Origin: Kitasatospora atroaurantiaca | GTDB taxonomy: Bacteria; Actinomycetota; Actinomycetes; Streptomycetales; Streptomycetaceae | Length of the DNA: 64,000 bases | NCBI RefSeq assembly: GCF_007828955.1 | Contig: NZ_VIVR01000001.1 | Coordinates: 3,100,001-3,164,000, forward strand | Reading direction: 5' to 3' | In this document: positions 6,519-61,646 of the stretch, in pieces | Layout: each line of letters begins with the position of its first letter | Numbering within the stretch: position 1 is the first letter of the stretch | Position numbers and translations under genes: made by a program | The notes under the pieces: generated by a model | Databases searched by the model: none | What the model was told of the DNA's origin: nothing | The model's input: only the letters and a program-made list of their open reading frames with translations

Positions 6519-10412
<3,894 letters not shown>

Positions 10413-10475
10413 TGGTCGTCAAGCCCTCTTTCGTAAGTCGAAAGTCGTTCATCTGGTCTGAGGGGGCCTGGGGGC

Positions 10476-10505
10476 GGGCCGGCTGCTTGTGGAAGCAGCC
10501 GGCCC
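10476..10505 (-). other. strong hairpin in the rpoB-rpoC gap
   Basis: A perfect 13-bp stem (GGGCCGGCTGCTT / AAGCAGCCGGCCC) with loop GTGG lies between the rpoB stop and the rpoC start. No T-tract follows. rpoC needs read-through, so this is more likely an mRNA processing or stability element, or a partial attenuator, than a full terminator. Confidence 0.6.
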
Positions 10506-10513
10506 TACCTCCG

Positions 10514-13990
<3,477 letters not shown>

Positions 13991-50370: not shown

Positions 50371-50403
50371 CTCCGCCCGGATCCAAAGGACCTCGGAACG
50401 GAC

Positions 50404-50694
50404 TCAGCGGCCGCCGAACTTCTCGTCTGTGGGGACGACCTCGCGACCCAACGGCATGAGGGAGATCGGGATCATCTTGAGGTTCGCCCAGCCGAACGGG
50501 ATCCCGATGATCGACAGGAACAGCGGGATGCTCGTCGCGATGTGAGCGAGCGCCAGCCACCAGCCCGCGAAGATCACCCAGATCACATTGCCGATGCAGG
50601 ACGGCGCCCCTGCGTCGGGCTTCTCCACCGTCGTCCGCCCGAAGGGCCAGAGGACGTACCCCGCGATTCGGAACGCGGCGATGCCGAACGGGAT
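50404..50694 (-). pseudogene. yccF: yccF, 3' part (displaced by integration)
   Basis: It encodes the C-terminal ~95 residues of a YccF-domain membrane protein (IPFGIAAFRIAGYVLWPFGR ... PLGREVVPTDEKFGGR) with no start codon. The missing N-terminus is found at 61465-61586, and the two parts join exactly at the shared core. The fragment is cut off from its promoter by the ~10.8 kb insertion. It is clearly related to the intact copy at 52038-52439. Confidence 0.9.
50684..50694. other. attL core of the integrative element
   Basis: CCGAACGGGAT is the 11-bp sequence shared exactly with 61465-61475. To its left is host yccF sequence and to its right is element DNA. Large serine integrases cut at the centre of such short identities. 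Confidence 0.85.
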
Positions 50695-50877
50695 CGCTTC
50701 CCGAGGAGCAGGATCGCGCAGCAAGCCCGATCAGGTTCCGGCTGACCCTGGCCTGAACCGCGTTAGCTAGAAGCCGTCACCACGGACGGGGCTTGAGAGT
50801 TCGGATGTGGGTATCAGCGCAAACCGGATTTTGCCGAACTCATGGTACGTGCCTGCGATGTAGGCCATCCTGGGGGG

Positions 50878-51921
50878 ATGGGTTGGGGGCGGAAGCGGTA
50901 CATGTGGGTGGCAGGCGGCACTGTCGCAGCAAGTGCGGGTTTGGCGGCAACTTACGCATGGCAGTTAGCCAGCATTCAGGTAATACCGACCGGATCTGCC
51001 GCGATAGTTGAGCGTTTCGGCAAGTATAGTCGTACGCTATTCACAGGATTCAACACGATCACTCCACTTGCAGACACAGTCAGAAATCGAATTGACCTTC
51101 GCGAGCAGACCGTCCCGTTCCCACTGTATGTGATCTCAACATACGATGGCTCCGCCATGCCGATCGAATTGACGATTCAATACAGCGTCACCGATCCAGT
51201 AAAAGCTACCTACAGCACGGCTTCATACATTCAGGCACTTGAGCGACACACCCTATATGAACTCACATATGCGCTTTCCAACCTTGCAGCCGCCGATGCG
51301 CGAATGTCACTTCAGCAAGTTGCTGGAGAGGTTCGCCAAGCCCTCGAACCGCGAGCAGCCCGCTGGGGGCTAACGCTCCACGAAGTCCTACTCACCCTAG
51401 GCACGATCGAGGTCACCGAACATGAGGATGAGGCCGCCGTGGTCGCCGACCACGGCGGAGCGTCAGCGCAGGTATACGCCTCACACGTAGTCATGAATGT
51501 CAGCGGGCAGATATCCAACCAGGCGAACGGCGGGTTCGAGTCAATGAGTAACTGGAAGATCGAGCGGCAACAAATATCAGGCGGCAACATTCAGCAGGGC
51601 GACCGTAACCATCAGGCCAATTACGGACAGGGCGGCGAACTCGGCTGGCAGCAGGCGCGTGATGTGATTACTACCCTGCTCGCAGAACTGAGGATGGCGA
51701 GCCAAGCAGGAAGGCTGACAGCGCCTTCGATAATCGCAGACGCCGAGGTAATCGAAGGCGAGCTGGTGGCCGCGGATGCGGAAAGGCGTGAACCTGACGC
51801 TGGCCTCATGCGCCAGGCATGGGAGCGGATGAAGACCACGGCTGGTCCGGCAGCCATCGCAGTAGCTGGAACAGCTACAGCCGACCTGATTGCCCAACTC
51901 GGCCAGCTTCTCGGAACCTGA
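50878..51921 (+). CDS. membrane-anchored SPFH/band-7 protein
   Basis: The product is about 347 residues from the ATG at 50878 (GGGGGG just upstream). One N-terminal membrane helix (MWVAGGTVAASAGLAATYAW) is followed by an SPFH domain (VIPTGSAAIVERFGKYSRTL, LREQTVPFPLYVIST, VTDPVKATYSTASYIQALER). A Gly/Gln/Asn-rich linker (ISGGNIQQGDRNHQANYGQG) leads to a helical C-terminal domain. That domain resembles one found at the end of various bacterial effector-type proteins (LLAELRMASQAGRL ... GTATADLIAQLGQLLG). Codon use is clearly more AT-rich than in the neighbours, suggesting foreign origin. The role is unknown; membrane scaffolding or defence is possible. Confidence 0.75.
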   Translation: MGWGRKRYMWVAGGTVAASAGLAATYAWQLASIQVIPTGSAAIVERFGKYSRTLFTGFNTITPLADTVRNRIDLREQTVPFPLYVISTYDGSAMPIELTIQYSVTDPVKATYSTASYIQALERHTLYELTYALSNLAAADARMSLQQVAGEVRQALEPRAARWGLTLHEVLLTLGTIEVTEHEDEAAVVADHGGASAQVYASHVVMNVSGQISNQANGGFESMSNWKIERQQISGGNIQQGDRNHQANYGQGGELGWQQARDVITTLLAELRMASQAGRLTAPSIIADAEVIEGELVAADAERREPDAGLMRQAWERMKTTAGPAAIAVAGTATADLIAQLGQLLGT

Positions 51922-52037
51922 TAATCCAGCCGGACTTCTCCATTCGCATTGGAGAATTAGTTAGCTCACTCCCAGCGCCCGGATGGGAGCGCCTCGCGTC
52001 GCCTTGTGTCGGCACAGGTGCCACCGTGCTGGAGATC

Positions 52038-52439
52038 TCAGCGACCGCCGAACCTCTCGTCGGTGGAGACGACCTCACGGCCGAGCGGCATCAGGGAGAT
52101 CGGGATCATCTTCAAGTTCGCCCAGCCGAACGGGATCCCGATGATAGTCAGGAACAGCGGGATGCTCGTCGCAATGTGAGCGAGCGCCAGCCACCAACCC
52201 GCGAACACCAGCCAGATCACGTTGCCGATACACGACGCCGCGCCGGCATCTGGTCGCTCCACCGTCGTCCGCCCGAACGGCCACAGGACATATCCGGCAA
52301 TACGAAATGAAGCAATTCCAAATGGAATGGTGATAATTAGGATGAAGCAGATGATCCCGGCGATGGCATAACCGATGGCCATCCAAATGCCGCAGAAGAT
52401 CAGCCAGAGGATGTTCAGGACCAGATCGATCACCTTCAT
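52038..52439 (-). CDS. yccF: complete YccF-domain protein carried by the element
   Basis: The product is 133 residues, an inner-membrane protein with two YccF repeats. It matches the split host gene throughout: N-terminus MKVIDLVLNILWLIFCG, end PLGREVVSTDERFGGR. The ATG follows GGGAGG, as in the host copy, and homology continues into the leader. Around the position of the att core (52318-52328) the DNA differs from the host at 16 sites in 49 bp, every third base, almost all synonymous. The gene probably restores YccF function lost by integration. What YccF does is unknown. Confidence 0.92.
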   Translation of the reverse strand: MKVIDLVLNILWLIFCGIWMAIGYAIAGIICFILIITIPFGIASFRIAGYVLWPFGRTTVERPDAGAASCIGNVIWLVFAGWWLALAHIATSIPLFLTIIGIPFGWANLKMIPISLMPLGREVVSTDERFGGR

Positions 52440-52520
52440 AGGAACAGCCTCCCATGTGCCTCGCGCGACCGCGCGTGATCTGCGTCCGGATGGCGCTTGG
52501 ACGACTCTCGATCGGGACGA

Positions 52521-53300
52521 CTACTCGCCAACATTGATCTCTGGCGCAGTCAGCTGTGGGACCGGTACGTCAGCCTTGCTGAGCACCGACAGGTGGGCAG
52601 CCGCTGAGCGCGAGAGGCTGTCGAGTACGGCCTTGCCCTTGGCAGCTGTTCCCAGGGACGGCTTGCCGATGATGCCGTTCTCGGTGTACCCGGCCATGCC
52701 CAGCGTCAGCAGGTGGGGGCGCTCGGGGGCGGAGTGGTCGTCCTGCTCGATCCCGTCGCGTACGAGGTGCGGCGCGCCGTGGAGCAGCAGGGAGACCTCA
52801 AGCTCGCCGCCGTGCATGTCCTCGGTGCCCGTGCTCTCCAGCTCGGCGTCTGTGCGGGCCTGGTGCCAGTCCTCCCGGACGGGGAAGAGGGCCAGGTTTC
52901 GCCCTGTGGTGTTGGCCTCCTGGACGACGTTGGAGAGCACGTAGTTGCCTCCGTGGCCGTTGACGATGATCAGGCCGGGTACGCCGGATGCCTGGAGGGA
53001 CTTCCAAATGTCGTTGACCACTGCGTAGAGCGTGGCGGCGCTGATGCTGACGGTCCCGGGCATGGTCGAGTGCTCGTGGGAGCATGCCATCGTGATGGGA
53101 GGGAGCAGGAAGAGATCGTAGTCGGTGGCGATGCGCTGAGCGATCACGCTCGCGATCACGGTGTCAGTGGTGAGCGGCAGGTGCGCGCCGTGCTGCTCGA
53201 AGCTCCCAATGGGCAGGACAGCCACTTTGGAGCCTCGGCGGCGCTCGTCGGCGGAAGTGGCCTGTGTGATCAGTGCGTCCATGATCCCAGCTTCTCCCAT
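52521..53300 (-). CDS. creatininase-family amidohydrolase
   Basis: The product is 259 residues. Family metal-binding motifs are present: IGSFEQHGAHLPLTTDT, IVNGHGGN and DMHGGELEVSLLL. The ATG at 53300 overlaps the upstream regulator stop as TGATG, indicating translational coupling; an ATG at 53282 behind GGGAGAA is an alternative. The family includes creatininase and the mycofactocin peptidase MftE; the substrate cannot be predicted here. It is coupled to the XRE/TPR regulator, so both are made together. Confidence 0.85.
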   Translation of the reverse strand: MGEAGIMDALITQATSADERRRGSKVAVLPIGSFEQHGAHLPLTTDTVIASVIAQRIATDYDLFLLPPITMACSHEHSTMPGTVSISAATLYAVVNDIWKSLQASGVPGLIIVNGHGGNYVLSNVVQEANTTGRNLALFPVREDWHQARTDAELESTGTEDMHGGELEVSLLLHGAPHLVRDGIEQDDHSAPERPHLLTLGMAGYTENGIIGKPSLGTAAKGKAVLDSLSRSAAAHLSVLSKADVPVPQLTAPEINVGE

Positions 53301-54592
53301 CAGCTCGTTCGAGGGCGAGGGACGACCGCACTGCGGGCAAGCGTGAGGCGGTCGGAGAATGCTGCGACAGCCGGAACATCACGCCACTTCAGCAGCGATT
53401 GGCCGGCGGCGGCCAGTTCGCCGATCGCCCGCGCGGATTCGGTGTCCAGTGCGATCGACAGGGCTCGGTCGGCTGCTGCGGCCCCCTGCTCAGGTTCGCC
53501 TGCGGTCGCGTAGGCGCGTGCCAGTCGCGAGAGGTAGACGCCTTGGTCGTTGCGGTAGACCTGTGGGAGAACGGCCAACTCGGCCTCGAAGACTCGGGCG
53601 GCGCGCTGTGGGTCGCCAAGCTCGATCCAACAGTTTGCCCGCTGCATCTCGACGTAGGTCGGGGTGCAGTAGGCCGTGTCCAGGGCGTCGTCGTCTTCGG
53701 GCTCGTCCGGTGCGGTGGCAAGCTCGTACGCCTCGTCGAACTTCGTCTGAGCGAACTTCGGGTTGCCCATGAGAGCGTGGCCCTGCGCCTCCTGCTGCGC
53801 CGCAAGGGCTCGGATTCGCGGCGTCACTCCAGAGACCCGCTGCGCAGCCCGCGCGAGGCTGACGGCCTGTTGCGGGTTCCGGCGGGCGGTGGCCTGGTTG
53901 CTCTTCCGGAAGAGCACATAGGAGGTCATGAGATCGTCGCCGGTCTCCTGGGACCACTCCATCGCGCGGTCTGACCAGTAGGTGGCCTGGGTGAAGTCTC
54001 CGAGATCCTGATGCAGCCACCCAAGGAACTCCGCAATCCGCGCGCCAAGGGTGAGCAGATCGTCCCGGACCGGGCCGGCGGTGTGCTCCTGTAGGCGGTC
54101 GATCGACCTGACGTGCCGCTCCACCGGGTCGAGCGCATGCCGGGAACCGAACAGATTCGCTGCCTTGTAGTGGCTGGGCATGATGGCCCGAATCTGGGAC
54201 GCGAAGAACTCGGGCTCGATGAGCGGGCTCGGAACTGCCGCAGAGTACGTGGGCTTGGGCAGGGCGTGGGTGATCGCGTTGGTTGCCGTGGCGGGCCGGG
54301 CGGACTGCTCCCATCCTCGGGTAGCCAGGCCGAGCATGTGTCCGGGGATGTGCAGCCCGTCGGCGATGCGCTCCACAAGATCGATCTTCTCGATGTTGCG
54401 GTTTCCTGCGATCACTTCGCCAACCCGGCTCGGTGTCAGGTCGCACGCCCTGGCGATCATTGACGGGTAGATCCCGGCCTGCTTGAGCAGGCGGAAGACG
54501 GTGGAGAACTTCCGGGCTCTGCAAGCCGCGATCATCTCGGGGTCGGCCAGAAGGGCACGCGGCAGCCTGTGCGGAATTCCGGCGTCCGCCAT
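53300..54592 (-). CDS. XRE-family regulator with TPR-like repeats
   Basis: The product is 430 residues. An N-terminal helix-turn-helix (AGIYPSMIARACDLTPSRVGEVIAG) is followed by a long helical TPR-like region, with repeated AxxxY/A-A signatures such as FTQATYWSDRAMEWSQETGD and YLSRLARAYATAGEPEQGA. This architecture is common in Streptomyces regulators that respond to small peptides or proteins. It is divergent from the HATPase cassette across a 175-base region with a perfect 15-bp palindrome, its likely operator. Confidence 0.88.
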   Translation of the reverse strand: MADAGIPHRLPRALLADPEMIAACRARKFSTVFRLLKQAGIYPSMIARACDLTPSRVGEVIAGNRNIEKIDLVERIADGLHIPGHMLGLATRGWEQSARPATATNAITHALPKPTYSAAVPSPLIEPEFFASQIRAIMPSHYKAANLFGSRHALDPVERHVRSIDRLQEHTAGPVRDDLLTLGARIAEFLGWLHQDLGDFTQATYWSDRAMEWSQETGDDLMTSYVLFRKSNQATARRNPQQAVSLARAAQRVSGVTPRIRALAAQQEAQGHALMGNPKFAQTKFDEAYELATAPDEPEDDDALDTAYCTPTYVEMQRANCWIELGDPQRAARVFEAELAVLPQVYRNDQGVYLSRLARAYATAGEPEQGAAAADRALSIALDTESARAIGELAAAGQSLLKWRDVPAVAAFSDRLTLARSAVVPRPRTS

Positions 54593-54656
54593 GGGTGTCC
54601 CCTCGTAGCGTGGACGATCTTCCGTTGCCTGTCGGCAAGTTGATTACCTGTGAGTT

Positions 54657-54671
54657 TACCCACATTGGGTA
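54657..54671. promoter_or_regulatory. probable operator of the XRE regulator
   Basis: TACCCA-CAT-TGGGTA is a perfect palindrome in the divergent region. It lies inside a wider dyad, GATTACC (54642-54648) and GGTAATC (54668-54674). It lies 65 bases upstream of the XRE gene and 97 bases upstream of the HATPase gene. Confidence 0.65.
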
Positions 54672-54767
54672 ATCAGGGTGGGTACGTCTCCGCTCTTCCG
54701 CTTGGCAATCCTGAAGTCACGCACCCGGACGACCGGGTGAGCACAAAGCGGGCTTCAGGAGGGCGGT

Positions 54768-55241
54768 ATGGGCGTGATCGGTTCCAGCAACATCTCCGGC
54801 AGCGGCGTGACGTTGCTCAAGCCGCCGAACACGGTTAACGAGCGGGGCTACTGGTTGCCGCGCCACCGGAGGTCGGCCGGCGTGGCTCGGGAGCGGCTGC
54901 GGGAGTTCCTCGCCGACGTTGGTGGCGGTGGGCAACTGCTCGACGCTGCCGAGTCGGTGCTCACAGAGTTGGTTACGAACGCGGTGGAGCATGCCCGCGT
55001 CTCGCCTGGTCGGCTGATCGCGGTCCGGCTTCTAGCCAGTGATGGCCGGTTGCGGATCGAGGTGCATGACGCGAGCGAGGAGCGGCCGGTGTTGCGGCCG
55101 GAGGTCGGCGGTGATGAGGAGTCGGGGCGGGGCCTGCGACTGGTCGAGCTGCTTGCGGTGGCGTGGGGTTGCTGCCCGCGTCCGGGTGGGGTCGGGAAGT
55201 TGGTGTGGGCTGTGGTTGGTCCTGTGGAGGGTGGGTCATGA
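54768..55241 (+). CDS. ATP-binding protein of the RsbW/anti-sigma (HATPase_c_2) type
   Basis: The product is 157 residues; AGGAGG lies five bases before the ATG. The GHKL ATP-binding motifs are VLTELVTNAVEHA (N box), VHDASEERPVL (G1-like) and SGRGLRLVELLAVAWG (G2). There is no histidine phosphorylation domain. Such proteins act as serine kinases or anti-sigma factors, and in Streptomyces they often sit beside XRE regulators. It is the first gene of a cassette of four overlapping genes. Confidence 0.85.
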   Translation: MGVIGSSNISGSGVTLLKPPNTVNERGYWLPRHRRSAGVARERLREFLADVGGGGQLLDAAESVLTELVTNAVEHARVSPGRLIAVRLLASDGRLRIEVHDASEERPVLRPEVGGDEESGRGLRLVELLAVAWGCCPRPGGVGKLVWAVVGPVEGGS

Positions 55242-55396
55242 GGTGGATCGGGCGCTCGGTTTGGGTGGAGGTGGCGCGCTGCTACTACTGCGGCGCGGGG
55301 CTGCGAACGGGGATGGCGCGGTTCATCGTCGTGGGTGGCCGGTCGGTCGGTGTGCACCGTCGTCACCCGCGCCGGGCTGGGGAGGTGGCGGCGTGA
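55238..55396 (+). CDS. small CxxC protein
   Basis: The product is 52 residues from an ATG that overlaps the preceding stop (ATGA). CYYCGAG gives one CxxC pair, and the C-terminus is basic (GVHRRHPRRAGEVAA). The coupled start and overlap with both neighbours support coding. It is possibly a zinc-binding accessory of the HATPase protein; the function is unknown. Confidence 0.65.
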   Translation: MRWIGRSVWVEVARCYYCGAGLRTGMARFIVVGGRSVGVHRRHPRRAGEVAA

Positions 55397-55746
55397 CTGG
55401 CCTCGCCAGGACCGGCGGTCTGCTGAGCGCTGTGGCGGTGCCGCACCCGCACGCGGTCACGGCTGAGATCGAGGGTGTCATGCCGGTCACGCCGTTTGCC
55501 TCGGTGGCCGACGCTGCCAGAGTGCTGCTGGCCGCCGTGCGGGGCTTCTCTATCGGTGAGCAGCAGCGGAGTTACGTTGCGTGCTGCTTGACCGGTGTTG
55601 GGTCTGCTGAGTACATCACGCGGTGTCTGGAGCGTGAGGGTGCGTGGTCGCTGACGGTGTACCTGGTGGACGGGTCGGGCGGCGGGGCGCGATGGGTCGG
55701 GCATTCCGTGCGGATCAAGGCCGCCAGTTGGGCGGCCGCGCGGTGA
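55393..55746 (+). CDS. small protein of unknown function
   Basis: The product is 117 residues from a GTG overlapping the previous stop (GTGA). It includes VADAARVLLAAVRGFSIGEQ and YITRCLEREGAWSLTVYLVDG, suggesting a compact alpha/beta fold. No family is recognised. It is part of the coupled cassette. Confidence 0.65.
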   Translation: MTGLARTGGLLSAVAVPHPHAVTAEIEGVMPVTPFASVADAARVLLAAVRGFSIGEQQRSYVACCLTGVGSAEYITRCLEREGAWSLTVYLVDGSGGGARWVGHSVRIKAASWAAAR

Positions 55747-56030
55747 CTCGGGGGCTTAGGGGTCTGTGGCTGCGGCTGGACATGTGGTGGGGCCTGCACG
55801 GGCAGTTCTCCAGGCCGGTGCGGTTGGTCAGTGCGCGCCGGCGTGCTGCTCACGAGCGGGTGGAGGCGCGGTGCGCGGAGCCCGGGTGCAGGGAGGCGGC
55901 CCTTCGGCGGCTTACGGATCGGATCGGGCTGCGAGATCTCGGGATCGGTGGTCCGCTGCCGATGCCCAGTGAGGCGGAGCTGTTCCGCCGGATCTTCGGG
56001 TGTGAGCCCGGGCGGGGAGTTGGCGGCTGA
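55743..56030 (+). CDS. small basic protein of unknown function
   Basis: The product is 95 residues from a GTG overlapping the previous stop (GTGA). It is Trp/Arg-rich at the start (GLRGLWLRLDMWWGLHGQF) and has two cysteines in ARCAEPGCREAALRRL. It is the last of four overlapping genes; no family is recognised. Confidence 0.6.
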   Translation: MTRGLRGLWLRLDMWWGLHGQFSRPVRLVSARRRAAHERVEARCAEPGCREAALRRLTDRIGLRDLGIGGPLPMPSEAELFRRIFGCEPGRGVGG

Positions 56031-56161
56031 GCGGCGCTGACGTGGGCGATCACAACTGAAGACTTGCCGGACCACCCCGAATCCTTGGCGGGGTGGGGGT
56101 GGTCCGGTGGGTTGGAACCCGGTGCCGATGGTACCGGGCTCCTCGGCATGTCTGTACACGG

Positions 56162-56500
56162 ATGGCGCTGGTTCGGTTGTCGATCAGGGGAGTTGACGGT
56201 CTGTTGGACGGGGACGACGGCGTTTTCGGGGAGCTGGCGGCGGACCTGGACCCGGATGCGTGGGTGTGGCTGCCGGGGGTGGACTATGCGGCGGGGTGGC
56301 GTGAGGCCCGGGATGCGGCCGATGAGCTGAACGAGGTGCTCGCGGCGTGTGGGGTGGACCGGCGGCACCTGCGGGCGGTGGCGGACACGGATGCCCATGG
56401 CCAGGGCTGGGTGCGCCTGGTCGGTGTGCCGTACGGCTGGCACCGGTTGGGCGAGCTGTTGCAGCTGGCCGTGGAGGAGGCGCGCCGCGAGTCGGCCTGA
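56162..56500 (+). CDS. small acidic protein of unknown function
   Basis: The product would be 112 residues from the ATG at 56162, with no strong ribosome-binding site. It is acidic and helical (DADGVFGELAADLDPDAW-like, ARDAADELNEVLAACGVD) and ends GELLQLAVEEARRESA. Proteins of this kind are common in Streptomyces integrative elements, but I cannot name a function. Confidence 0.6.
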   Translation: MALVRLSIRGVDGLLDGDDGVFGELAADLDPDAWVWLPGVDYAAGWREARDAADELNEVLAACGVDRRHLRAVADTDAHGQGWVRLVGVPYGWHRLGELLQLAVEEARRESA

Positions 56501-57265
56501 GGCCGCATCGGCCCTGCTCTGCTCGGGTGGCAGGTGGCGAGCGTGGGCACGCGGCCGGCGGGGGAAGGGTTTGGGCGGTGTCCTTGCGGGGCTGGGGTCG
56601 GGCATGTCCGGGGGGCCGTAAGCTGCTTCGCGAATCGGGCAGGCTTCTGGGCCTGACCGCAATTTGGCCGAGTGGCCCCCCGGTCTTGCCCGACGCGGGC
56701 CCCGGCCCGGCAAGGTGCCTAAAGCCTCCCACTGCCGTCCGCCCCCGGCCACCACGCGGCAGCCCCTGCCGCCCTCGGCTGGTCCGGCTGGCGCCGCCGC
56801 CACCAAGTCCGCGCCCAGGCCAGTCACTACAACCGACAAGCCGCGAATGAGGCATGAAGATCACGATCTACGGCTGGAGTATTGGGCGCCGGGGTGCCGG
56901 GTGTCAGCTTTCGGAGGTGGCCTGCTGCCCTGATCCCGCTCACCTGCAACGAGATTCAGCGCCTGTTCACCACGCTCGTCATCCGACTGGCCACGACGCG
57001 GCCCCACCGGCTGCGGACGGGCGGGCGAGTATCACTGCCACCTGTGTCCATGTGCAAGTCGGCGGCAGTGGCGCATTGTTGAGGGATATTCAGCGAGAAG
57101 ATCGAGCTAGTGCTTTCGGATCTGGCCCCAGCCGTGGCCGGTGGCAGCGTGGGACTGAACACGCTCGGTGCCTACGGTGGCACTGGCCGCGTCGGGGGTT
57201 GCGGTGGGTGGTCGAGGGCCGGACGCTGGAAGGAGAGAGCCAACAGGGAGAGGAGGTGTTTTCCC
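56501..57265. other. gene-poor stretch inside the element
   Basis: I find no convincing coding region here. Open frames exist on both strands but lack family matches and ribosome-binding sites. A frame starting MKITIYGW at 56854 runs on through the cupin start and is probably spurious. The end of the stretch must contain the cupin promoter. It may be decayed element sequence. Confidence 0.4.
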
Positions 57266-57742
57266 ATGGCAGAGAAGACCGTGGCGCTCAAGCAGGGAGA
57301 GGGCAGGTCGTTCTGGGTGCTGAACGGCTTGTACACGGTGAAGGCGTCCGCCGACGAGACCGGTGGCGCGTTGACCGTCATGGAGATGACGATTCCCGCC
57401 GGCTGGGGACCGCCGCCACACACCCACCCCGGGACCGAGAGCGTCTGCGTCCTGGAGGGCAGGATCCGTTACTACATCAACAACGAGACGATCGAGGGCG
57501 CCCCGGGATCCTTCTTCCACATTCCCGAAGGAACCTGGGAGAGATTCGAGCCGCTTGAGACGTCGCGCCTCCTGGTCATCTACGCGCCGGGTGGGTATAT
57601 CGAGGAGTTCTTCGCCGAGGCAGGCGAGCCCGCCACAGCGAATGAACTGCCCACTCCGTCCACCGAACCGCCGGACTACGAACGTTTCGCGGAGATTGGC
57701 GCGCGGCACGGCATCCAGATGAGGCCGAAGCCGGAGAGCTGA
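57266..57742 (+). CDS. cupin-domain protein
   Basis: The product is 158 residues; AGGAGGT lies eight bases before the ATG. The cupin metal site is PPHTHPGTESVCVLEGRI (two His and Glu) with a second-motif FHIPEGTWERFE; the final His is replaced by Trp or Phe. It resembles quercetin-dioxygenase-like cupins. It may be an enzyme or a small-molecule sensor; the substrate is unknown. Confidence 0.82.
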   Translation: MAEKTVALKQGEGRSFWVLNGLYTVKASADETGGALTVMEMTIPAGWGPPPHTHPGTESVCVLEGRIRYYINNETIEGAPGSFFHIPEGTWERFEPLETSRLLVIYAPGGYIEEFFAEAGEPATANELPTPSTEPPDYERFAEIGARHGIQMRPKPES

Positions 57743-58084
57743 TCGTGTCCTGCTCCGTGGCCTGCCCCGCCCGCCCGGGATACCCGGCGGTACGGGGCGT
57801 TGGTGCGCCAGTACGGTCGAGCGGTGGTTGTGCGGGGGCGGCCTGGCCGCCCGGCCCGGAACGGCCGGCAGGCCGCATGCCCGGCCGGGGCGGCAGGGGC
57901 CGCCCGGCGGCGCGGTAGCGCCGCCCTTGAGCAAGTGAAGAAGGTATGCGACGGCCCCTGTGGTTTTGCCCGGTGCCCGCAGCGGACTGCCCGCAGCGGA
58001 TTGTCCGGGGCCCGGCCGGCGACCGGCGCTTGGCGGGGGACTGGTCGCGATGCATCATGGCCTGTCCGGGAACCTCGGGGCACC
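57743..58084. other. gene-poor stretch with a hairpin
   Basis: There is no supported gene. A perfect 8-bp hairpin GGCGGCGC-GGTA-GCGCCGCC at 57906-57925 could terminate cupin transcription. The rest is GC-rich sequence without recognisable features. Confidence 0.4.
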
Positions 58085-58363
58085 TCAGTTGATGCGGTCG
58101 AGTGCCGCCGTACCGTCTCCGTTCTTGTACGACAGCAGGTGCTGGGTGCCGTTCAGCGTGAACGGGACCATAGACGTCCAGCCATCTGTCCAACCGTCAC
58201 GCCACACCGAGGCCAATGAGCCGTCCGTGTTGATGCGGTCGAGTGCCGCCGTACCGTCTCCGTTCTTGTACGACAGCAGGTGCTGGGTGCCGTTCAGCGT
58301 GAACGGGACCATAGACGTCCAGCCGCCTGTCCAACCGTCACGCCATACCTCTGTAAGTGTCAT
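58085..58363 (-). CDS. two-repeat protein (beta-propeller-like unit), possibly a fragment
   Basis: The product is 92 residues made almost wholly of two 47-residue units. Each has VWRDGWT-GWTSMVPFTLNG, then THLLSYKNGDGTAALDRIN-like sequence; they differ at one residue. The unit resembles blades of secreted propeller/lectin-type proteins that carry many copies. There is no signal peptide, and the ribosome-binding site (AAGG) abuts the ATG. It may therefore be a remnant of a longer gene. Confidence 0.55.
   Translation of the reverse strand: MTLTEVWRDGWTGGWTSMVPFTLNGTQHLLSYKNGDGTAALDRINTDGSLASVWRDGWTDGWTSMVPFTLNGTQHLLSYKNGDGTAALDRIN
58088..58349. repeat. 141-bp-period tandem duplication
   Basis: 58088-58208 and 58229-58349 are identical except for three positions (118/121). 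The period is 141 bp (47 codons), and the gene at 58085-58363 reads through both copies. Confidence 0.92.
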
Positions 58364-58567
58364 CCTTAAATTGTTACATCGTGCACGAACACTGAATACA
58401 CTCCAAGCGGGTGATGTCGGGGCGCGGGCGCATTCCGGCGAAGGGGCTATCCAGGATCGCTCCGGCGCCGTAGCAACACGGCTCGTGGACTGTTTCCACA
58501 GCATGAACCACCGGGCAGGTCACGCCATTTCACCTCGGTCCGCACCCGGTGCAGAATCCTTCGAACA

Positions 58568-59302
58568 CCTGCCGGTGATCACGCCACCGGTCACAATGCC
58601 CATTTCCCCGACGGGCCCAGCTCCCCGCCCCCGGCATGGGCGACGACAGATCTCCTCCTGGAGACCGTCCGCTCGGCGGCGTCCGTCGTGGCGCTGGCAC
58701 CACCGGACTCGGCCGCGTACGGAGATGTGCGGCTGCGCTTCGGCACCCAGCTCGACGCGCACCCGCTCACCGACGGGGACGGCGGCCGGATCACGGACGA
58801 GGCCGTGGCGGCCTATGTCGCCAAATACACCAGCAAGAGCGTGGAAGCCGCCGGGGCAGCAGATCGACGCATCGACTCCTGGGCGGAGATCCGAACGCTG
58901 CGCGTCACGCCGCACGTCCGGGCCCTCATCTCGACCGCGTGGCGGCTCGGCGGCCTCCCGGAGCTGGAACACCTGCGGCTGCGGGCCTGGGCCCACATGC
59001 TCGGATACCGGGGCCACTGCCTCACCAAGACCCGCGCCTACTCCACCACATACGGACAACTCCGCGCCGACCGCGCCGAACACGCCCGCACCCTGGCCGG
59101 CGCCCGTGAACTGTTCGCCGACTGGGACGACGGCACCACCACCGAGGCGACCTGGCGCTTCGTCGGAACCGGCCACACCCCCGCCGAAGCACTCATCGCC
59201 GCAGGCATCGCCGAAGACCTCACCACAAACCGCGAGACCGCCCGGCAAGAGCTGGCCAATGGTAATCACCCGGAGCGGGACTCCCTCAGGAAGCTGGCAT
59301 GA
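58568..59302 (+). pseudogene. RepSA-type replication initiator, C-terminal remnant
   Basis: An open frame without a start codon encodes about 240 residues that match the C-terminal part of pSAM2-type RepSA proteins: FPDGPSSPPPAWATTDLLLE, VRLRFGTQLDAHPL, VAAYVAKYTSKSVEAAG, GLPELEHLRLRAWAHMLGYRGHCLTKT in part, and WRFVGTGHTPAEALIAAGIAED. Complete initiators are about 450-550 residues. It stops overlapping the next small gene (ATGA), as in intact elements. It shows descent from an actinomycete integrative element that once replicated. Confidence 0.75.
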
Positions 59303-59445
59303 CGCCGGTCAAGGTCATTTGGCGGCCGAGCAAACAGCTGACTCCAGAGGAGAGTGCACGGCTACTCCGGTTGCTGTTCGTTCCTCAGGTCGAACAGTCC
59401 AACCAACTCAAGCGAGACCGGATGAAGCGTCAGATTCGCGACTAG
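59299..59445 (+). CDS. 48-residue basic protein between rep remnant and integrase
   Basis: The ATG overlaps the RepSA stop (ATGA). The product is small and basic at its end (MTPVKVIWRPSKQL ... QLKRDRMKRQIRD), with a helical middle. Related small genes sit between rep and integrase in Streptomyces elements. A recombination directionality factor is one possibility, but no motif shows it. Confidence 0.6.
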   Translation: MTPVKVIWRPSKQLTPEESARLLRLLFVPQVEQSNQLKRDRMKRQIRD

Positions 59446-59463
59446 GCTGCTGTTAACAATGCG

Positions 59464-59492
59464 CCCCGGCGACGGCTGCAACCGTCCCGGGG
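59464..59492 (+). terminator. hairpin upstream of the integrase
   Basis: CCCCGG-c-GACGG pairs with CCGTC-CCGGGG around CTGCAA, between the small gene and the integrase start. It could separate integrase expression from upstream transcription. Confidence 0.5.
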
Positions 59493-59515
59493 CTGGCCGA
59501 CCAGTTGGAGTCGAC

Positions 59516-61480
59516 ATGGCCAATAGAAGCACACTCCTGCACAGCGCGACCGGCGTGGTCGGACGGGCGACGGCAGCATCCGTACTGCGTGCGGTGGACT
59601 ACCTCCGGGTCAGCACCGAAGAGCAGAAGCGCGGCTACGGCATCGCCAGCCAGGGTAAGAAGACCGCCGCCCATATCGTCCGTAAGTGCTGGTCCCACAC
59701 CGATACCTACAGGGACGAGGGTGTCAGCGGCAGCCTGGAGGCGGCCGATCGGCCGGATCTGAAGCGCCTCATGGAGGACGCGGTCCGGGCGCCACGTCCC
59801 TTTGACGTGGTGGTGGTCAACGAAGGGCGGGCCATCGGGCGTACCGGACGCGCATTCTGGCGCTGGGTCTGGGCCCTCGAAGACATGGGCATCTTCGTCG
59901 CCATCGTGGACGGTGACATCGACAACACCACCTCGGAAGGGCGTCGGGAGATGCGTAGGCAAGCCGACTACGCCGAAACCGAGTACGAGACCATCCGCAA
60001 TCGCACTCAGGGAGGACTACAGGAAAAGGCGGAATCTGAGGGATCGCCGCACATCGGAGGACGGCCCCCGTACGGCTACTACATCCAGAACAAGGGGCAG
60101 AAAGGCCGCTCGCACCTCGTCGTGGACGAGGATGAGGCGAAGGTCATTCGTCGCGTGTACGCGATGGTGGTCACCGGAGGACTCAACCTCCGCCAGGTGG
60201 CAATTCGGCTCAATGCCGACGGGCTCAGGACCCGATCGGGCCGTCCGTGGTCGCTTGCCAACCTTCGGGACCGGATCATGTCCCGCGCCGTGCTCGCTGG
60301 CGAGCTGGTCTTCCGTGGTGAGCACGCGCGGACCGACGCCGACGGCAGGCCGGTTTGGGGTGAGGCGGTCGCCATCTCACTCCCCCGCATCCTGACCGAC
60401 GAGGAGGCCACGGCGCTCTGCGCAAAGGTCGCCGCACGGGCGAACAAGAGCAACCGCAACCAAGCGTTCTACCCGCTTACCGGTCGGCTGGTCAGCCTGT
60501 GCAACTCCCCCTACACCGGGGCCAGCCGCGAATCCATGCGCAACGGGCGCCGCAACTACCGTTGCAGCGGAAAGACCGAACAGGTCCCCGGCCAGCGGGT
60601 CTGTGACTGCTCGTACGTGGATGCTGAGGCGGTCGAGAACCGGGTGTGGACCGAGGTCGTCGCGCTCCTCGGAAACGCCAAGCGCCTCGGGAAGCTGGCG
60701 GCCGAGTGGGTTGGCATGACGCACGGCGACCAACCCGCACATGCGGCTCGGATCGCCGATCTCGACGGCCAGATCGACGACATGAACGCCTCCATCGCCG
60801 CCGTGATCGTGGCTTCCGCCAAGCAGAGGCAGTCGCCCAACGCCATCGCTGCAGCGACCAAGGCTCTGAACGATGAGCTGGAGCAACTGGAGGAGATGCG
60901 AGCAGAGGCGACGGCCTGGCTGGCGGAGATCGAGGACACGCACCGCCGAGCCCAGGACCTCAAGCGGCTCGCGAAAATGGCTCGGCATCAGCTGGTTGAC
61001 ATGACGCCCGAGCACCAGGGCGAGATCCTGGCACTCCTCGACGTGAGGGTGTTCATCGAGGGACCCGTGCCGATGCGGCGGGGTGGGGTGGCCTGCACGG
61101 TTCAAGCCTGGTATCGCTCCGCCGGCCTGGAGGCACCCGCATCCGACTTGTCGGACGATGATTGGGAGTTGATTGCGCCGCTGCTTCCGGAAGGTCGTCG
61201 CGGAAGGGTGCGCCGATCGGTGGAGGCGATCTTTGCCAAAGCCCGTACGGGCGCCTCCTGGTCCGAACTGCGAAAGGAGTACGGATCGACCAGCACCGCT
61301 TCGAAGTACTTCAACGAGTGGTCTGTTGACTGCACTTGGGCTGCGGTCAACACTGCCTTGTCTGAGGTGGAGCGAGTCGCGCTTCCCGTCCTTGACCTCG
61401 CGCCCCCTATGCGAATCGAAGGGCGGATCGACCCGCGCGTGATGCTGACACCCGAGGAACTGTCCCGAACGGGATGGTGA
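59516..61480 (+). CDS. large serine integrase with C-terminal DUF4096-like domain
   Basis: The product is about 654 residues; the ATG at 59516 follows GGAG at five bases, and an ATG at 59459 lies in a hairpin. The resolvase domain has the catalytic Ser in DYLRVSTEEQKRGYGIASQ and Arg in EGRAIGRTGRAFW. A recombinase domain (PPYGYYIQNKG), zinc-ribbon cysteines (LVSLCNSPY ... YRCSGKT ... VCDCSYV) and a coiled coil follow. Residues about 542-610 (SDDDWELIAPLLPEGRRGR ... GASWSELRKEYGS) resemble the DUF4096 helix-turn-helix of IS5-type transposases. The last codons and stop lie in the attR core and host DNA. Confidence 0.92.
   Translation: MANRSTLLHSATGVVGRATAASVLRAVDYLRVSTEEQKRGYGIASQGKKTAAHIVRKCWSHTDTYRDEGVSGSLEAADRPDLKRLMEDAVRAPRPFDVVVVNEGRAIGRTGRAFWRWVWALEDMGIFVAIVDGDIDNTTSEGRREMRRQADYAETEYETIRNRTQGGLQEKAESEGSPHIGGRPPYGYYIQNKGQKGRSHLVVDEDEAKVIRRVYAMVVTGGLNLRQVAIRLNADGLRTRSGRPWSLANLRDRIMSRAVLAGELVFRGEHARTDADGRPVWGEAVAISLPRILTDEEATALCAKVAARANKSNRNQAFYPLTGRLVSLCNSPYTGASRESMRNGRRNYRCSGKTEQVPGQRVCDCSYVDAEAVENRVWTEVVALLGNAKRLGKLAAEWVGMTHGDQPAHAARIADLDGQIDDMNASIAAVIVASAKQRQSPNAIAAATKALNDELEQLEEMRAEATAWLAEIEDTHRRAQDLKRLAKMARHQLVDMTPEHQGEILALLDVRVFIEGPVPMRRGGVACTVQAWYRSAGLEAPASDLSDDDWELIAPLLPEGRRGRVRRSVEAIFAKARTGASWSELRKEYGSTSTASKYFNEWSVDCTWAAVNTALSEVERVALPVLDLAPPMRIEGRIDPRVMLTPEELSRTGW
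61465..61475. other. attR core of the integrative element
   Basis: CCGAACGGGAT is identical to 50684-50694. The integrase gene ends across it, and yccF sequence continues to its right. Confidence 0.85.
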
Positions 61481-61586
61481 TGATCAGGATGAAGCAGATG
61501 ATCCCGGCGATGGCGTAGCCGATGGCCATCCAGATGCCGCAGAAGATCAGCCAGAGGACGTTCAGAACGAAGCCGATCACCTTCAT
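61465..61586 (-). pseudogene. yccF: yccF, 5' part (displaced by integration)
   Basis: From the ATG at 61586 (GGGAGG upstream) it encodes the first ~41 residues of YccF (MKVIGFVLNVLWLIFCG ... ITIPFG) and is then interrupted by element DNA. It retains the native promoter side. On the element side the frame runs into sequence antisense to the integrase. Confidence 0.9.
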
Positions 61587-61646
61587 GGGACCAGCCTCCC
61601 ACGCACCTCGGGCGATTGCCTGCCAACCGGCCCTGCCGGCCCTCCA

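Follow-up and report, generated by a model that had tools for sequence, protein, structure and literature searches.

The nearest precedent that we found for the element described here is the island in tmk of Pseudomonas putida KT2440, which carries its own dNMPK (PMC10653934). Here we analysed a 10.8-kb element with a large serine integrase that splits the membrane-protein gene yccF of Kitasatospora atroaurantiaca and carries a complete yccF of its own, whose codons are respelled over the attachment (att) site. The element lies in a stretch of 64,000 nucleotides, referred to as the window, in a genome of 7.9 Mb that forms a single contig. In the portions of that report available to us, the tmk island resembles the window element in splitting a conserved gene and bringing the function along; it differs in having tyrosine-type recombinases and a T4-like rescue kinase unrelated to the target (PMC10653934). 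Because the rescue protein is unrelated, no att site had to be removed from its gene. The rescue gene of the window element is homologous to its target, and its codons are changed over the att site.

Islands in tRNA and tmRNA genes also restore their split target, and in the part of the Islander report drawn on here they regenerate it at the junction (PMC4383910), whereas the window element carries a separate whole gene with a changed att site. Integrative and mobilizable elements that use site-specific serine recombinases are like the window element in their recombinase and in inserting within a gene; they disrupt genes that the host can dispense with, and no rescue gene appears in the parts of the review consulted (PMC5704250). 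In the literature searched, coverage of which leaves out most subscription journals, we found no description of a naturally occurring rescue gene with a recoded att site and nothing that combines yccF, an integrase and actinobacteria. Large serine integrases of the phiC31 kind match that of the window in domain order, short core and integration inside a gene. We know of no rescue gene among them, and the window integrase is unlike them in its DUF4096 C-terminal region. Engineered cleave-and-rescue gene drives disrupt a gene and carry a recoded copy resistant to their own attack; they are man-made and nuclease based and operate in sexual eukaryotes, whereas the window element is natural, integrase based and bacterial.

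A split yccF and its complete copy

We found that the two ends of the element share the core CCGAACGGGAT. This short identical core stands at both junctions of a target gene that can be rejoined, and a complete, conserved copy of that gene, the cargo yccF, is carried inside the element. The features are as follows, in window positions.

50695..61464, no strand: integrated element of 10,770 bp, bounded by the two cores and recognised by exact core repeats at its ends, the split yccF and relatives of like layout
50684..50694, plus strand: left-junction core CCGAACGGGAT (attL)
61465..61475, plus strand: right-junction core CCGAACGGGAT (attR)
50404..50694, minus strand: 3' part of the native yccF, including the stop codon; 91% identity to the cargo protein, residues 37-133
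61465..61586, minus strand: 5' part of the native yccF, from its ATG
52038..52439, minus strand: cargo yccF, complete, 133 aa, PF03733; ratio of nonsynonymous to synonymous substitution (dN/dS) 0.076 against the native gene
52290..52340, minus strand: recoded block, codons 34-50 of the cargo yccF, with the crossover dinucleotide at 52321-52322
52126..52136, plus strand: second core, unaltered, within the cargo yccF at the second IPFG motif
59459..61480, plus strand: large serine integrase, 673 aa, with Resolvase, Recombinase and zinc-ribbon domains; its final codons extend across the attR core

The window protein thus has the three domains by which large serine integrases are recognised, and attP × attB recombination activity and directionality are predicted for it. 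Its residues 564-630 (window 61148-61348) form an additional C-terminal module, DUF4096, which is IS4/5 transposase-like.

The codon pattern over the att site

In what follows C_ denotes a cargo yccF, N_ a rejoined native yccF and H_ an intact host yccF, with WIN for the window. The native gene was rejoined as 50403-50694 plus 61476-61615 and aligned to cargo positions 52037-52468. Over the whole alignment 62 of 432 nt differ: 31 of 253 to the left of the block (12.3%), 16 of 49 in the block and 15 of 130 to its right (11.5%). The 16 substitutions that the first-pass annotation had listed in 52290-52338 are all present, with no further ones in that block. The single amino-acid change (Ala to Ser) was likewise as described, and the native core CCGAACGGGAT does read CCAAATGGAAT in the cargo gene (52318-52328); the flank divergence, put at 7-11%, had been set too low. 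The block spans the crossover, as that annotation had stated, but lies off-centre: in gene orientation it starts 17 nt ahead of the dinucleotide TT (52321-52322) and ends 31 nt past it. The attB sites of such integrases usually measure about 40-50 bp, and the extent of the recoding agrees with this size. The protein is conserved (dN 0.048, dS 0.630), and the cargo yccF, if expressed, may be able to replace the native function.

A second occurrence of the core lies within yccF, at native 50492-50502 and cargo 52126-52136, where the second IPFG motif is encoded. The right arm there in the window cargo (TGG GCG AAC) differs from that of the used site. TGG follows the second IPFG motif in Kitasatospora-type genes, and because it alters the right arm, the unaltered second core of the window cargo may be harmless.

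The block was then set against host-gene pairs of like divergence. The raw density of nucleotide differences proved not to be rare: at least 16 differences fell in some 49-nt window in 30 of 371 such pairs, and codon shuffling reached 16 differences in 17 codons in 665 of 20,000 trials. Among the 15 listed of those 30 pairs, none had its dense window over the crossover. The density argument was dropped as weak following this host-pair control. The codon pattern of the block, unlike the density, is clearly beyond chance. Between C_WIN and N_WIN 15 of 17 neighbouring codons differ, which 2 of 20,000 codon shuffles reached. Synonymous change affects 14 of the 16 comparable codons in 34-50 compared with 20 of 88 outside (Fisher test, p = 1.3e-6), an excess over the att site relative to the rest of the gene that was matched by 11 of 896 like host pairs; the 10 of these 11 that are listed all involve one recoded host, H_L042. 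At third positions, changes from G/C to A/T number 13 in the block, with no reversal, and 13 with 5 reversals in the rest. Within 20 nt on either side of the crossover C_WIN differs from the native gene at 12 of 40 positions, reached by 4 of 105 like host pairs. A control for A/T clusters in the window's own genome (crude open reading frames (ORFs); maximum 12 in 43 ORFs) was not relied on.

Recurrence in related elements

yccF is present in all 70 genomes of the genus searched. Relatives of the integrase were found in 6 of these 70 at E 1e-60, in 20 of 394 family genomes at 1e-150 and in 4 of 392 genomes of a second genus of the same family (g10, which we take to be Streptomyces) at 1e-195. 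In the class, 1 of 394 genomes had a match at 1e-195, namely the window's own, and the genome contigs held 4 loci. Ten relatives with a complete cargo yccF were analysed: G027, G055, G016, G241, the g10 elements G277, G269, G307, G326 and G615, and L005 of Actinocorallia populi. Both native parts accompany the cargo gene in G027, G241, G277, G269, G307, G326 and G615, and the native yccF was rejoined for these seven as for the window; G055 retains the native 5' part only, and G016 the 3' part only, truncated. In G269, G307, G326 and G615 the integrase and the cargo gene lie on separate contigs, so their linkage is presumed. The cargo gene runs in the same orientation as the native one in the window, G027, G016, G055 and G241, and in the opposite one in the five g10 elements. 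Translations of all 11 cargo genes are free of internal stops, and dN/dS was 0.07-0.23 in six cargo pairs (WIN, G027, G055, G016, G241 and L005).

The A/T respelling was found to recur. Over codons 33-50 (rest of the gene in brackets), A/T-ending codons number 14/18 (14/104) in C_WIN, 11/18 (9/103) in C_G016, 10/18 (14/102) in C_L005 and 9/18 (9/104) in C_G055; the corresponding counts for the native genes are 1/18 in the window and 0/18 in G027. Third positions of codons 34-50 went from G/C to A/T eight times with no reversal in C_G055/H_L108, eight times with one in C_G016/H_L040 and ten times with none in C_L005/H_L017. Fisher tests of A/T gains in the block versus the rest gave 1e-7 to 8e-5 for C_WIN, C_G055, C_G016 and C_L005. 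An A/T excess over the att site was thus found for G016, G055 and L005 as well, and not for G027 or the five g10 cargo genes. When A/T-ending block codons of five cargo genes were compared with those of the genus hosts, the Mann-Whitney test gave p = 0.0003; the host set comprised 64 of 65 single-copy genus hosts, with L029 excluded for lack of a parsable ORF and G002 also excluded. The respelled codons are only partly the same from one cargo gene to another.

A tree was built without the block; its bootstrap was unsettled, with 30 of 90 inner branches open. In it C_G055 is sister to host L108 (100/96), C_G016 groups with hosts L040 and L042 (100/95), C_G027 with C_L005 (88/93), and the native gene of G241 is the sister of C_G241 (100/93), while the placement of C_WIN among Kitasatospora-type hosts is open. 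These positions suggest either that recoding arose several times or that an old recoded block was kept while its flanks were exchanged with local host genes. The hexamer ATTCCA directly before the crossover is common to all five Kitasatospora-type cargo genes, which keeps the second alternative in play.

We also traced the A/T frequency along a recoded set of nine sequences (four cargo genes and five hosts, picked by block content, with the g10 host H_L072 removed by hand). It peaks at codons 38-40 (1.00, 0.89 and 0.78), drops to 0.33 at -20 nt and to 0.11 at +25 nt, and climbs again to 0.44 at +31 nt. In 15 of 93 sequences some 18-codon window holds at least 7 A/T-ending codons, and in 12 of these 15 the range of best windows covers the crossover codon, 40. 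Of the three exceptions, H_L130 stops one codon before the crossover codon, and C_G277 (codons 116-133) and H_L116 (12-31) have theirs elsewhere.

Among the relatives themselves, the G277 element (L048, G277:C2:5039033-5044039) is very small, with about 2.9 kb between the native parts, integrase and cargo yccF included. In G016 (L159, 17439-19446) a frame change interrupts the integrase match between residues 80 and 83, so this copy may be inactive. One in-frame stop occurs in the integrase match of each g10 element (L045, L046, L047, L048 and L091, for G269, G326, G307, G277 and G615 respectively) and may be the natural end. L005 (~9342-12010) is a recoded-cargo element that does not lie inside yccF and ends in other DNA; a yccF besides the cargo copy was looked for in that genome and none was found.

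Other differences at the used site

Recoding would be one of several solutions, beside a changed dinucleotide and a divergent allele. A mismatch at the crossover dinucleotide is known to block productive recombination in this enzyme class, and in G241 the dinucleotide is TG in the native gene and TT in the cargo. C_G241 differs from its own native gene at 12 of 40 positions in the att window versus 30 of 330 elsewhere (p = 0.0005), which none of 40 like host pairs reached; the excess lies in nucleotide differences and not in A/T-ending codons.

In the tree the five g10 cargo genes fall into a single group (94/86) on the side with the Kitasatospora type, and their hosts have the other type. Between cargo and native genes 12-16 of 40 nt differ at the first site; for the second site, used by G307, the figure is 11 of 40. 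Counted at the used site, the rescue genes differ at 11-14 of 40. These values come close to the divergence elsewhere in these genes, so the g10 cargo genes give no sign of local selection. In G307 (L047, L069) the element is inserted at the second IPFG motif, after which the native gene has ATC, as at the first site. C_G307 has the highest count of A/T-ending codons at this second site among 93 sequences (4/17, the next being 3), which is no more than suggestive. As a universal rule, recoding was ruled out by G277 and the other g10 cargo genes.

Interpretation and rival explanations

We consider it probable that the window holds an insert-and-rescue element whose rescue gene is immune at the att site. 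The integrase would recombine attP with attB in yccF at the first IPFG motif and split the host gene, and the complete yccF brought by the element would allow the cell to keep the protein. A homologous rescue copy would provide another attB. Recombination between it and attP in the excised circle would delete or invert part of the element, and in the chromosome an unaltered copy would be a second landing site. Selection would favour cargo genes whose att region is no longer recognised and whose protein is unchanged. In Kitasatospora-type elements, G/C-ending codons would have been exchanged for A/T-ending ones over about 20 nt on either side of the crossover; G241 would have taken the route of a changed dinucleotide, and the five g10 elements that of a distant allele already different at the used site. 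Judging from the sequence, the respelled site is probably no longer recognised by the integrase. Self-recombination may be the selective pressure, and rescue may be needed by the host. The first-pass annotation had proposed selection that keeps the protein and destroys the att site. The conserved protein and the recurrence of A/T respelling over the crossover in three cargo genes on different tree branches, with no such trend across g10, favour that proposal; it does not extend to a general rule, as the five g10 elements lack a local excess.

A number of further observations weigh against the insert-and-rescue reading. The G241 integrase uses a native left half spelled ATTCCA, the same as in the five Kitasatospora-type cargo genes, and therefore those changes alone need not block integration. 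C_G027 is weak, with 4 of 18 A/T-ending block codons (rest 13/105, p = 0.22) and 4 A/T gains in the block (p 0.10-0.12). Cargo genes are richer in A/T-ending codons outside the block too (p = 0.004). Plain differences within 20 nt of the crossover are unexceptional in C_WIN/H_L016 (9/40, p = 0.09), C_G055/H_L108 (7/40, p = 0.06) and C_G016/H_L040 (6/40, p = 0.22); because these counts against the nearest hosts are unremarkable, the case for G055 and G016 rests on the direction of change to A/T. In the recoded set codon 28 is high in isolation (0.78), and several A/T-rich windows are centred upstream of the crossover. A related cargo yccF with an unaltered core had been named in the first-pass annotation as evidence against its proposal, and C_G277 is such a gene: it keeps the 11-bp core, although 13 of 40 nt differ from its native att region. 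C_G326 has a dN/dS of 0.39 against its native gene. A/T-ending codons are moderately raised in the native genes of G277 (4/18) and G241 (4/17) and in single g10 genes (H_L072 6/18, L185 5/17, L162 4/17). Finally, recoding is not confined to cargo copies. In intact genus hosts the block holds 0/18 A/T-ending codons in 23 of 64 genes, with a tail that includes H_L042 (13), H_L018 (9), H_L026 (9) and H_L015 (7).

In each of these four recoded hosts (genomes G062, G052, G050 and G057 for L042, L018, L026 and L015) yccF is single-copy, runs from position 1501 of the locus and lies close to htpX, like the native gene. Their context was examined by tblastn with chosen proteins, tblastx being uninformative in GC-rich DNA, and neither a yccF fragment nor an integrase match was found within about 19 kb around them. 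Since several intact hosts share the block, recoded alleles may have moved to hosts, or cargo genes may have been drawn from hosts already changed. The mark in hosts may be an immune allele, reached through host escape from integration or through a rescue gene that outlived its element. A decayed element in G413 (L191, G413:C17:14000-26000) looks like a step towards the latter: its integrase is matched only at residues 541-672, the C-terminal part, there is no complete yccF apart from its cargo gene, and a 3' fragment of the native gene persists. This cargo gene (L170) is outside the 11 analysed.

It is rather unlikely, in our assessment, that hosts were recoded first, under integration pressure or by element loss that left the rescue gene, and that immune alleles were later taken as cargo; the block would still be a mark of att avoidance, with selection acting at least partly on hosts. 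This order of events gains from the four recoded hosts and from G413, from the block of C_WIN, which is closest to that of H_L042 (13%) while its flanks are closest to H_L017 and N_WIN, and from the grouping of C_G016 with H_L042 and H_L040. However, C_G055 has 9 A/T-ending block codons compared with 1 in its sister host L108, and the sequences closest to C_WIN in their flanks, H_L017 and N_WIN, contain 0 and 1. With near relatives unrecoded, the recoding of C_G055 and C_WIN looks younger than capture.

Two explanations leave the integrase aside. An intrinsic feature of the gene, such as slow codons between membrane segments or an internal signal, would account for the A/T richness of some integrase-free hosts and for the genus-host average of 10% A/T-ending codons in 31-52 versus 5% elsewhere. 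We regard it as very unlikely, because 23 of the 64 genus hosts have none in the block, every codon of the second IPFG motif is A/T-ending in fewer than 10% of genus hosts, and 28 g10 genes show no group excess (5.9% in the block, 5.4% elsewhere). The g10 set comprised 28 of 29 loci, with L186 excluded; one member is the G413 cargo gene, leaving 27 not known as cargo. Four g10 genes (L172, L173, L174 and L180) encode the identical 17 block residues with 0, 1, 2 and 0 A/T-ending codons, so the respelling is not required by the peptide. Elements of this family occur in g10 as well, so the genus cannot serve as an unexposed control. Still less credible, if anything, is chance or the mosaic import of a divergent stretch of the gene: like host pairs (30/371) and shuffles (665/20000) do reach the density of the block, but the synonymous test (1.3e-6) does not fit it, nor do the A/T gains that three other cargo genes show over these codons, and the block peptide is nearly unchanged.

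If the rescue gene is immune as the insert-and-rescue reading proposes, the element would be a natural, apparently repeated case in which a gene-breaking mobile element solves self-targeting by means of a homologous rescue copy. The respelling would also outline the att positions that this integrase family may read. More tentatively, the system could be a natural counterpart of cleave-and-rescue, in which immune rescue copies outlive the element and replace the host gene, the recoded intact Kitasatospora genes being fossils of past elements; we hold this to be possible, though on balance doubtful. Lineages would then be left whose yccF can no longer be targeted, and recoded host alleles could record host-element conflict in synonymous sites.

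Further observations

In twelve genomes, G019 and G190 among them, the integrases are more distant (31-51% identity) and yccF is present as one intact gene; these integrases presumably use other target sites. Streptosporangium canum L006 holds yccF fragments only and no complete copy. In G002 (L065, G002:C76:7000-26000) a yccF 3' part begins at the same crossover, and a complete yccF almost identical to it lies 14.5 kb away. No related integrase match was found there, none among the ten ORFs scanned, and htpX was not found in the next 19.5 kb; perhaps this is another kind of insertion at the same point. Among phage records, 8 match YccF (unannotated) and 651 the integrase, all at less than 60% identity. 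Viral contigs gave none with a related yccF and one with a 45% integrase, and plasmids gave no match at E 1e-60.

Other genes of the window element, in 50842-54592, encode a Band_7/SPFH protein, a creatininase-family protein and an NsdA-family TPR regulator; the first part of this region has a GC content of just 55-60%. Two direct repeats of 121 nt, 98% alike and 141 nt apart from start to start, lie at 58088-58349.
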